Source of the DNA: Methylophilales bacterium LSUCC0135
Lineage (GTDB): Bacteria > Pseudomonadota > Gammaproteobacteria > Burkholderiales > Methylophilaceae
Assembly (NCBI GenBank): GCA_001704575.1
Contig: MCAW01000001.1
Span: 245,876-309,875, forward strand
Direction of reading: 5' to 3'
DNA length: 64,000 bases
Part shown: positions 13,312 to 63,669 of the stretch, in pieces
How the letters are laid out: every line of letters begins with the position of its first letter
Numbering within the stretch: the stretch's first letter is position 1
The notes under the pieces: generated by a model
What the model saw: the letters and a program-made list of their open reading frames with translations, nothing else
What the model was told of the DNA's origin: nothing
The model's database searches: none
Translations under genes and position numbers: made by a program

Positions 13312-13411
13312 GGATAAAGGGATTTCAGTTAAACTAATGCCATTATAGAAGCTTGGCCGGGTGGAAGGTTCACCAATCAAGGCTGATCGAACAATTTTAA
13401 TGGAAATCATG

Positions 13412-13960
13412 ATGGCACTGAACAACGACAACCTGATCTGGCTGGATATGGAAATGAGCGGGTTATCGCCTGAAAACGACCGTATTCTTGAACTGGCTGC
13501 AGTCGTCACCGATGCTGAACTGAATGTGCTGGCTGAATCGCCGGTGCTGGTCGTGCACCAATCCGATGCGGTGCTGGATGGCATGGATGCATGGAACAAG
13601 GGAACCCATGGCCGTTCGGGATTGATCGACAAGGTCAAGGCATCGACGCTGGATGAAGCGAATGCAAGTGTGCAGATGATTGCTTTTCTGAAGGATTACG
13701 TGCCGGCAGGAAAATCGCCCATGTGCGGCAACTCCATCTGTCAGGACAGGCGTTTCATGGCGCGTTACATGCCCGATCTTGAAGCATATTTCCACTACAG
13801 GAATCTCGATGTGAGCGTGTTCAAGGAATTGGCCAGGCGTTGGAAACCAGCGATTTATGCCGGCTTTAAAAAAGCCAGCAAGCATGAGGCGCTGGCAGAT
13901 ATTTATGAATCAATTGAAGAGCTTAAGTACTACCGCGAACATTTCATCAAGCTTGACTAG
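13412..13960 (+). CDS. orn: Oligoribonuclease
   Basis: Orn degrades 2-5 nt RNAs to mononucleotides and is often essential in proteobacteria. The 182-aa product shows the DEDDh exonuclease layout: WLDMEMSGL near the start, then [11 protein letters not shown] and [14 protein letters not shown] near the end. E. coli Orn is of almost the same length. Three in-frame ATGs (13400, 13409, 13412) are possible; 13412 gives the typical [14 protein letters not shown] start. None has a strong ribosome-binding site. The gene is divergent from the M48 protease gene. Confidence 0.95.
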
Positions 13961-13984: not shown

Positions 13985-14046
13985 AAAAAAATGGGTGCGG
14001 CTAGCGCACCCCCAGGGAGGAGAAGTAAAGCTTTGGAGAAAGCTCG
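13985..14046 (-). ncRNA. Candidate ~62-nt small RNA with anti-Shine-Dalgarno segments
   Basis: Read on the minus strand this gives a first hairpin AGCTTT-CTCC-AAAGCT (14044-14029), a single-stranded linker TTCTCCTCCCT (14024-14014), then an intrinsic terminator: GGGTGCG / CGCACCC with a short loop (14011-13993) followed by seven T residues to 13985. Both the first loop and the linker are complementary to Shine-Dalgarno sequences. A sigma-54-type promoter sits at the right distance upstream. There is no open reading frame of note. The family is an inference: I recall a betaproteobacterial 'toxic small RNA' group with anti-SD character but cannot check membership. Confidence 0.65.
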
Positions 14047-14056
14047 CTGATACTTA

Positions 14057-14073
14057 AGCATTAAGCGTGCCAA
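14057..14073 (-). promoter_or_regulatory. Sigma-54 (-24/-12) promoter for the candidate small RNA
   Basis: On the minus strand: TTGGCACGCTTAATGCT. This matches the RpoN consensus (TTGGCACG-N4-TTGCW) at all but one of the defined positions, with the invariant GG and GC separated by 10 nt. The predicted start at about 14046 places the whole small RNA and its terminator directly downstream. Confidence 0.65.
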
Positions 14074-14120
14074 AACTTTATCCGTGATTTACCTTACGCA
14101 TGCTGTGTGACAGGAAAAAG

Positions 14121-14150
14121 AAAAAGCCTGAAGATTCTTCAGGCTTTTTT
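14121..14150. terminator. Intrinsic terminator downstream of glgA
   Basis: Hairpin AAAAGCCTGAAG-ATT-CTTCAGGCTTTT, with T-runs suitable for both directions. It ends glgA transcripts (minus) and insulates the small RNA promoter at 14057-14073 from read-through. Confidence 0.9.
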
Positions 14151-14188: not shown

Positions 14189-15652
14189 TCATCGATGGGG
14201 CCGGTTAAGCAGTGATTCATATAACTGCATGTAGGCTTTTGCGCTATGACTCCAGCCCAAGTCCTGCCGCATGCCGTTACGCTGAATTTGCGGCCATAAC
14301 GTCGAGTTGCGGTAATAGCCGATGGCGCGTTCAATGCAGAGCAGCAGTTGAACAGCGTCGACATAAGGCATGACGAAGCCGGTGGCTTCATTGATTTCAA
14401 GATTTTCATGATTGGTATCACGCACCGAATCGGCCAGCCCGCCAGTGTGCGTGACAACCGGCGGCGTGCCGTAGCGCAGGCCATACATCTGGTTCAGCCC
14501 GCAAGGCTCGAAGCGTGAAGGCATGATGAAAATATCTGCACCCGCCATGATCTGGTGCGAAAGCGGCTCGTTGTAGCCGATGGTGACGCTCACCTGTTGC
14601 GGGTAGCGATGTGCCAAACTCTGGAATCCGTGCTCAAGATGGGCTTCGCCGCCGCCGAGCACTGCAATCTGGCAACCGTCCTTGAGCACGCTCTCGGCTA
14701 CCGACAGAAACATGTCCAGACCCTTCTGATGCGTCAGGCGGCTGACCACCCCCAGCAGTGGCGCATGTTCGTTTACTGCAAGTCCAAGCTGAAGCTGCAG
14801 GGCGGACTTTACACGTTGCTTGCCGGAAAGGTTGTCGACGTCGTAATGGGCTACCAGATGTGGATCGGTGGCCGGGTTCCATTCATTGGTTTCAATACCG
14901 TTCAGGATGCCCTGGATTTCATGGCCCCGAGCCGCCAGCAGGCCTTCCATGCCAAAGCCGAATTCGCTGGTCTGTATTTCCCTGGCATAGGTCGGACTGA
15001 CGGTCGTGATGGCATCGGCATAATAAATGCCGGCTTTCAGAAAAGAGAGTTGGTGATGGTATTCAACGCCATGCATCTGATAGCTTTCGGCCGGTAGCCA
15101 CAGGCGCTCGACCCAATTGGCCGGAAAGCAGCCCTGAAAGGCGAGGTTGTGCAGGCTGATGACCGATCTGGCATGGCTCTCCGGCATGTAATGCATGTAG
15201 GCTGGTGCCAATCCACTTTGCCAGTCATTGCAATGCACGATGTCCGGGCGCCAGTCAGCGACAGGGCTGTCGTTGCAGCTCAATAGCGCCGCAACGCGTG
15301 AAAGGATGCCGAATCTCAATGCGTTGTCTTCCCACTCGCGGCCGCCGGCGTCGGCATAGGGACCGCCCGCCCGTTGATACAGACTGGGGCAGTCAATGAC
15401 CATGACCGGAACATGCGTGTCAGGCATGATGCCCATCAGCAGGTTGGCCGAGCCAATCAGCGGCAGATGCTGGATATGGGCGAGGTGTTCGATGTGCTTG
15501 AGTTTTTCCAGGACCGCCGCATAGCCGGGGATCAGGATGCGTATGTCCGCTCCCAGTGTCCTGAGTGCTGCCGGAAGTGAGCCGCTGACATCTGCGAGAC
15601 CGCCGGTTTTGATAAGTGGGTATGCTTCGGAAGTTACGAATATGATGCGCAC
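14189..15652 (-). CDS. glgA: Glycogen (starch) synthase, GT5 family
   Basis: GlgA extends alpha-1,4-glucan from ADP-glucose. The 487-aa protein begins with the GT5 signature around KTGGLADV (15-22), has HNLAFQG and the acceptor-side segment in the N-terminal Rossmann half, and the donor-site motif SRFEPCGLNQMYGLRYGTPPVV with HTGGLADSV in the C-terminal half. The GTG at 15652 is chosen because it gives VRIIFVTSEAYPL, the normal start; the frame continues to 15724 without a better codon. No glgB, glgC or glgP lies in the window, so the gene stands alone here. It is divergent from crcB. Confidence 0.93.
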   Translation of the reverse strand: MRIIFVTSEAYPLIKTGGLADVSGSLPAALRTLGADIRILIPGYAAVLEKLKHIEHLAHIQHLPLIGSANLLMGIMPDTHVPVMVIDCPSLYQRAGGPYADAGGREWEDNALRFGILSRVAALLSCNDSPVADWRPDIVHCNDWQSGLAPAYMHYMPESHARSVISLHNLAFQGCFPANWVERLWLPAESYQMHGVEYHHQLSFLKAGIYYADAITTVSPTYAREIQTSEFGFGMEGLLAARGHEIQGILNGIETNEWNPATDPHLVAHYDVDNLSGKQRVKSALQLQLGLAVNEHAPLLGVVSRLTHQKGLDMFLSVAESVLKDGCQIAVLGGGEAHLEHGFQSLAHRYPQQVSVTIGYNEPLSHQIMAGADIFIMPSRFEPCGLNQMYGLRYGTPPVVTHTGGLADSVRDTNHENLEINEATGFVMPYVDAVQLLLCIERAIGYYRNSTLWPQIQRNGMRQDLGWSHSAKAYMQLYESLLNRPHR

Positions 15653-15804
15653 TGATAAAATACCTGGGTTGAAAATTATTCTTATTGTTTTAAAGCTGTG
15701 ATGATTCGGGCGGATGAGCGGCAAGCTTTGTTTGCCTTGCGCATCATCATACTGAGGTGTTATCGGCGAATCAAGCCAGGTCAGATTTATTCAGGAGAGA
15801 TCAG

Positions 15805-62664: not shown

Positions 62665-63669
62665 ATGTCTGTCTATCCCTGGCAATCGGAGCTTTTACAA
62701 AAACTCTCGGATGATCGCGCTCGTATGCCGCATGCGATCCTGCTGTATGGAAGCAGCGGCATAGGCAAATATGATTTTGCCCGGCAACTGGCAAAATCGC
62801 TGCTATGCCTTACACCCGTCGCCAGCGGTGAGCCATGCGAAACCTGTGCCAGTTGTGGCTGGTATCTGCAAGACAACCACCCGGATTTTCGCCTGCTGAC
62901 ACCAGAGCAGGATGCAGAGAATGAGCAGAATTCCGCGGCAGCCAAAAAAAATGCTCGAAAAACTCAGATCAGCGTTGCCCAGGTGCGTGAGCTTGGCAGT
63001 TTTCTGGAATTATCAAGCCACCAGAGCAATGGCTTGAGGGTTGTCCTGATCGAGCCTGCCGAATCGCTCAATGCTGCGTCAGCAAACAGCCTGCTGAAAA
63101 TGCTCGAAGAGCCGCCAGCCGGCGTGATTTTCATTCTGGTCAGCCACCAGATCAACCGTTTGCTGCCTACCATCATCAGTCGCTGCCGCAAGATCGATAT
63201 GCCTTTCCCGGACCGTGCAACTGCACTTGCCTGGCTGAATCAGCAAGGAATGAAAAATGCAGAGCAGCTGCTGGATTATTATGGTGGTGCACCGCTGAAT
63301 GTTGTCAGGAACAACGGGCAGGATGCCGGTACGGAAAGTGCAAACCTCTTTTTGCAAGGCAACAACCTGGATCCTTTTCTTGCAGCATCAAAAAGTGTTC
63401 TGCTCGGAATGGAAGTCGCGCTCGATGCACTGCAGAAATGGGTTTACGACCTGTTATCCGCCCGTCTGACAGGTCAGGTGCGTTACTACAACCGGCATGC
63501 AACGGCTTTGCAAGCCCTGAGCAAGGAGGTAGACTTGAGCATGTTGCTGGATTTCCAGCGTCAGCTTGATGAAGCCAGAAAGTCCGCCAACCACCCATTG
63601 AACAATGAGTTGCAGCTTGAAACAATTTTTCTTACTTATACCCAATTGTTTATGAAAAAGACCGGATAA
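62665..63669 (+). CDS. holB: DNA polymerase III delta' subunit
   Basis: The delta' subunit is part of the clamp loader. The 334-aa AAA+ protein has a P-loop-like GSSGIGKY, a zinc module with CETCASC, the VRELGSFLELSSHQSNGLRVVLIEPAESLNAASANSLLKMLEEPP segment and the SRCRK sensor motif. The ATG at 62665 gives MSVYPWQSELL; a frame start at 62644 would overlap tmk. pilZ follows after 4 nt. Confidence 0.95.
   Translation: MSVYPWQSELLQKLSDDRARMPHAILLYGSSGIGKYDFARQLAKSLLCLTPVASGEPCETCASCGWYLQDNHPDFRLLTPEQDAENEQNSAAAKKNARKTQISVAQVRELGSFLELSSHQSNGLRVVLIEPAESLNAASANSLLKMLEEPPAGVIFILVSHQINRLLPTIISRCRKIDMPFPDRATALAWLNQQGMKNAEQLLDYYGGAPLNVVRNNGQDAGTESANLFLQGNNLDPFLAASKSVLLGMEVALDALQKWVYDLLSARLTGQVRYYNRHATALQALSKEVDLSMLLDFQRQLDEARKSANHPLNNELQLETIFLTYTQLFMKKTG

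Follow-up and report, generated by a model that had tools for sequence, protein, structure and literature searches.

Within the 64-kb stretch of DNA that was analysed (the window), a small unit lies on the minus strand between two genes. Its upstream neighbour, which has the same direction, is a minus-strand ORF at 14189-15724 that we take from sequence knowledge to be glgA (glycogen synthase), and its convergent downstream neighbour is a plus-strand ORF at 13361-13960, on the same grounds presumably orn (oligoribonuclease). The hairpin at 14119-14150, which has A and T runs, is the apparent terminator of glgA. The minus-strand sequence TTGGCACGCTTAATGCT at 14073-14057 matches a sigma-54 (-24/-12) promoter, with GG and GC 10 nt apart (GG-N10-GC) in the context TGGCAC-N5-TTGCW. 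The position of the -12 element places the predicted transcript start near 14046, and with the U-run as its end the predicted sRNA (13985-14046, minus strand) is therefore about 62 nt long, an extent that agrees with the fold, the alignments and a covariance model. Fold and alignment define hairpin 1 (AGCUUU-CUCC-AAAGCU, 14029-14044, minus strand) with an anti-Shine-Dalgarno (anti-SD)-like CUCC loop (14035-14038). It is followed by an unpaired CU-rich linker, UUCUCCUCCCU (14014-14024), a putative anti-SD seed with the core UCUCCUCC, and by an intrinsic terminator (13985-14011) of the form GGGUGCG-CUAGC-CGCACCC plus U7, the stem of which lies at 14011-13993 and the seven U at 13991-13985. The unit thus has the two hallmarks of anti-SD sRNAs, an unpaired, conserved CU-rich seed and an intrinsic terminator. 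The sequence-only reading had described a GG-GC-spaced sigma-54 match, a hairpin, a linker and a terminator with seven T, and all of them were found as described. As an observation it is confirmed that the locus comprises a sigma-54-type promoter feeding a small predicted anti-SD RNA.

The 64-kb window by itself gives the promoter motif no more than modest weight. The exact pattern TGGCAC-N6-TGCW has a single match in the whole window, and when one mismatch is allowed the number of promoter-like matches is 18, compared to 15.6 expected. We accept the motif as non-chance because it is conserved across relatives, not because of the window statistics. A blastn search of 100 related genomes with a query of 106 nt yielded matches in 28 of them, all inside the Methylophilaceae apart from one 21-nt match to the terminator. 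GG-N10-G[CT] is present at or near the same place in 27 of the 28 homologues (GT replaces GC in one of the 27). The remaining homologue, L014, has lost the promoter, although its genome contains rpoN. The 28 aligned sequences have TGGCA, TGCTTA, hairpin 1, UCUCCUCC and the terminator in conserved form, and the linker core UCUCCUCC is even invariant, whereas conservation is absent from the 35 nt preceding the promoter.

The minimum-energy fold contains both hairpins (-19.6 kcal/mol, z -2.0), and in the alignment the two-hairpin structure exceeds every shuffle and slide in the number of paired cells, with 30 double-change cells for the whole structure versus 7.8 in shuffled alignments. The terminator helix is 97% paired and six of its seven pairs have changes on both sides, which is covariation. 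The helix of hairpin 1 is 88% paired with a compensatory change in one pair, and this hairpin is conserved mostly at the sequence level.

Because circularity was to be avoided, the covariance model R1 was built on the RNA alone and the promoter was left out. With R1 the sRNA was found in 126 of 187 genomes of the family, in 93 of the 119 genomes of good quality, and in 22 of the 24 genera of the Methylophilaceae. The named records of a genome-wide pattern scan belong to Methylophilus, Methylotenera, Methylobacillus, Methylovorus and Pseudomethylobacillus, all of the same family. The small genomes (mostly 1.0-1.4 Mb) of the genera g14 and g15 almost always lack the sRNA but have kept rpoN, the score of which is much lower in g15. 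Eighty further R1 places were fetched, and the 45 with scores of at least 40 bits served as promoter test set. TGGCA-N7-TGC is present within 80 nt upstream in 45 of 45, compared to a chance expectation of 0.012 per locus (per 84 nt), and in 0 of the 45 on the opposite strand, in the next 220 nt upstream, or downstream. The joint conservation of hairpins, CU-rich linker and promoter, on which the sequence-only reading had staked its case beforehand, is therefore seen in every one of these newly fetched strong R1 matches. The 45 loci belong to related genomes of one family and are not independent events, but the flanks are unconserved, so that time for promoter decay was available despite this kinship. 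A comparison of the orn-glgA gap in related genomes, which had also been proposed, showed that glgA adjoins the sRNA at 106 and orn at 102 of the 140 loci, among which paralogues elsewhere are counted; the order glgA > sRNA < orn persists while the flanking sequence diverges. The combination of a predicted promoter with a putatively ribosome-masking RNA is not a chance find, and the predicted sRNA represents a new, unannotated family.

The machinery for sigma-54-dependent transcription is available. The gene rpoN (TIGR02395) was found in each of the 60 genomes of the family that were examined, among them the genome of the window (G000), which also contains six strong sigma-54 activator proteins (PF00158), among them a clear NtrC (710 bits versus a cut-off of 559), as well as hfq. 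Co-occurrence of rpoN and the sRNA was discarded as a test, because rpoN is present in 60 of 60 genomes, even in small ones without the sRNA. Upstream regions of the glgA-orn sRNA, grouped into 20 clusters that share no 18-mer, were scanned for NtrC boxes of the type GCACYAN4RGTGC, and none was found (mean score 7.16 versus 7.34 for shuffled sequences); the sigma-54 promoter of amt, the positive control, scored 9.9. Since the upstream scores were no better than those of shuffles and the control was positive, gating by NtrC or nitrogen, which had been envisaged from the sequence, is unsupported at the glgA-orn sRNA. In the same scan, boxes were found at amt and at most copies of a second sRNA described below, and in none of the 20 clusters. 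The signals from an unbiased motif search upstream of the sRNA overlap the glgA coding sequence or the glgA terminator and are uninformative for this reason.

The earlier reading had mentioned a similar betaproteobacterial family of toxic sRNAs (Rfam RF02278), which includes the double-hairpin RNAs ncS03/05/27/62 of B. cenocepacia (57-92 nt) and Hsnc59/63/86/107 of H. seropedicae (PMC5688073, PMC7011215). The likeness is considerable, as RF02278 RNAs also have a terminator, two hairpins and stretches rich in C and U that are complementary to ribosome-binding sites (PMC5688073, PMC7011215), and size, single-stranded CU-rich regions and taxonomic range are alike, so that the unit might be regarded as a divergent member. 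However, RF02278 has no match at the site, neither at the gathering threshold (50 bits) nor at E<=10, and the architecture differs. As seen in a comparison with 30 members, RF02278 RNAs start with UGUCUCCUCC, followed by a hairpin with a second CUCC run in its CUCC-rich loop, an order that the glgA-orn sRNA does not have. RF02278 RNAs have their seed at the very 5' end as well as in loop 1 (UGUCUCCUCCACCCUCCUCC), the glgA-orn sRNA has it in the linker. In addition, the TGGCA-N7-TGC promoter is present at 0 of 30 RF02278 loci. The likeness thus does not amount to membership, which was rejected for the missing Rfam match, the different order of seed and hairpin, and the missing promoter, and we consider it very improbable. 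A weak match to RF02278 exists elsewhere in the genome (28.8 bits versus the cut-off of 50; L001:1501-1620, G000:C4), which could be taken in favour of membership because it shares CTTCTCCTCCCTG. It is flanked by genes that we take from sequence knowledge to be groL and uvrD. In this RNA CTTCTCCTCCCTG is identical to the linker of the glgA-orn sRNA and is found in a hairpin loop, and no sigma-54 promoter was seen at this locus.

Another explanation would be that the RNA is released from the 3'UTR of glgA, with the stretch serving also as a two-way terminator for orn and the GG-GC motif being incidental or minor. In most genomes the sRNA lies directly downstream of glgA in the same direction, and several relatives have no obvious terminator between the two, which would fit such an origin. 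The window, in contrast, has the strong hairpin at about 14119-14150 between glgA and the promoter, so that transcription of the unit appears to be independent of glgA here, and similar hairpins are present at this place in several relatives. Furthermore, the promoter elements keep a fixed internal spacing while the flanks change. Processing from the glgA mRNA is therefore improbable.

The reading that we prefer, with a probability of roughly 0.7, is that of a free-standing, trans-acting sRNA that is switched by sigma-54 and represses translation by base pairing. Methylophilaceae would thus probably switch on this sRNA to lower the translation of chosen genes. The computation shows the anatomy of the unit, that promoter, seed and terminator are conserved together, and that the genome contains rpoN, hfq and enhancer-binding proteins; we infer transcription of the sRNA, its dependence on sigma-54, a signal, the repressive sense of its action and the existence of targets. 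According to this model, sigma-54 RNA polymerase, opened by an enhancer-binding protein, would start at about 14046, and transcription would end at the U-run. In the resulting RNA of about 62 nt, UCUCCUCC would be exposed by the unpaired linker and CUCC by the loop of hairpin 1. Both could pair with ribosome-binding sites that are rich in purines (GGAGGAGA type) in selected mRNAs and prevent the initiation of translation, probably together with Hfq. Anatomy and comparison with tested RNAs make pairing of UCUCCUCC with ribosome-binding sites the most likely mode of action. Repression at ribosome-binding sites via similar motifs has been shown for S17 of Bordetella (PMC11722255) and NfeR1 of Sinorhizobium (PMC10746234), and it has been predicted for ncS27 of B. 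cenocepacia (PMC5688073). S17/S17S of Bordetella pertussis resemble the glgA-orn sRNA in having conserved CU-rich sites in single strands, which in their case block ribosome-binding sites, and S17 depends on Hfq; however, S17 has a sigma-A promoter and is processed by RNase E (PMC11722255). S17 represses a sigma-54 activator, whereas the glgA-orn sRNA has a sigma-54 promoter itself. NfeR1 (alpha-r14) and the cuckoo RNAs share the anti-SD motif (CCUCCUCCC), the pairing with ribosome-binding sites and a context of nitrogen stress, but NfeR1 is alphaproteobacterial, contains three hairpins, each with the motif, and is activated by LsrB and repressed by NtrC (PMC10746234).

The pattern GGAGGAGA-N-ATG has eight matches in the genome of the window (G000), compared to none for the reversed pattern, and few of the eight are at real gene starts. 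The best candidate target is amt, encoding an ammonium transporter, with a GGAGGAGA ribosome-binding site that is fully matched only within the genus. No target conserved throughout the family was found among the GGAGGAGA-N-ATG candidates; the matches at amt and at a few further starts are isolated ones. In this genus, the amt gene (L337:1440-2723, and L343) also has a sigma-54-like promoter of the GG-N10-GC type and an NtrC-like box in addition to its GGAGGAGA site.

It is well known that CCUCC occurs in the 3' end of 16S rRNA. The seed of the sRNA contains the same CCUCC, and the RNA could therefore be a general brake of translation or a mimic of the 16S 3' end, which would pair widely with Shine-Dalgarno sequences, or occupy partners of the ribosome, and slow growth. 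A family-wide target was not found, and RF02278 RNAs inhibit growth when overexpressed (PMC5688073), which would both be in accordance with such a function. However, conservation of the seed (UCUCCUCC) extends past the 16S core, suggesting a longer match, and S17, the motif of which is similar, acts on defined targets and leaves exponential growth of E. coli unimpaired (PMC11722255). Nothing favours a brake or mimic over pairing with selected ribosome-binding sites, and we regard it as unlikely.

Small RNAs driven by sigma-54 are known from several bacteria, namely Qrr of Vibrio, GlmY of enterobacteria, and CrcZ and NrsZ of Pseudomonas, which are made from a -24/-12 promoter under the control of an enhancer-binding protein, as is proposed here. 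To our knowledge, none of them is built around a UCUCCUCC anti-SD linker as in the anatomy of the glgA-orn sRNA. Anti-SD RNAs are already known in Burkholderiales and rhizobia. The glgA-orn sRNA would combine two known kinds, anti-SD sRNAs and sigma-54-driven sRNAs. The earlier suspicion that the link of RpoN to an anti-SD RNA is new appears to be correct for the literature searched, outside of which most subscription journals lay and which held no report of the glgA-orn sRNA or a similar sigma-54-driven anti-SD RNA. The sRNA would add a family that is missing from Rfam, and its sigma-54 promoter, which throughout the family is about as conserved as the seed, would represent a clear control point in methylotrophs.

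A second sigma-54-type anti-SD sRNA gene was observed in the same genome (L373:2100-2245; G000:C7, about 62700-62845), between glnK-amtB and a gshA-like gene. It was reached through weak R1 matches, which had been regarded as promoter-less paralogues; this view was overturned, because they represent a second sRNA family with the promoter about 90 nt before the seed. At each of the 11 glnK-amtB loci examined, a sigma-54 promoter is followed after about 90 to 100 nt by a CUCCUCC run with a terminator. NtrC-like boxes, in most cases some 87 nt ahead of the promoter, are present at nine of the 11 loci and surpass nearly all shuffles (mean score 9.3 versus 7.4 for shuffled sequences); a clear box is absent from the other two, the copy in the genome of the window and that in G001. 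The existence of this second, NtrC-type gene points to RNAs that act at the level of translation as a possible answer to sigma-54 signals.

Of 399 genomes of the order, Methylophilaceae included, 46 contain the pattern TGGCA-N7-TGC-N(22-52)-TCTCCTCC, with about 50 matches compared to five for the reversed pattern. Many of the matches outside the family look like chance, among them matches in coding sequence; sRNA-like matches with hairpin and terminator are those of f29 (L155-L158) and f23 (L305-L309, L311-L313) as well as L161, L164 and L172. It is conceivable, with the odds slightly against it, that short anti-SD RNAs controlled by sigma-54 are a widespread and repeatedly assembled regulatory layer in Betaproteobacteria, and that the Methylophilaceae carry at least two such genes. 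If so, the glnK-amtB gene would be of the NtrC type and the gene next to glgA would be under another activator, and each of the different sigma-54 signals would set off an RNA that lowers translation. Possible sigma-54 anti-SD units with terminators, which could be due to chance, were also seen in other Proteobacteria at L209, L225, L267, L271 and L245 (Steroidobacteraceae, Aquisalimonas, Sulfuritalea and Desulfosarcina). L155, L156, L157, L158 and L172 have a sigma-54-like promoter and, after it, an RNA in which a CTCCTCCCCC-type motif occurs twice, the second time inside the terminator loop. L305-L309, L311-L313 and L164 have a sigma-54-like promoter, a variable hairpin, a conserved TTTCTCCTCCGAGAGCGGTTTGCCC and a terminator, and these units are apparently another sRNA family in Betaproteobacteria.
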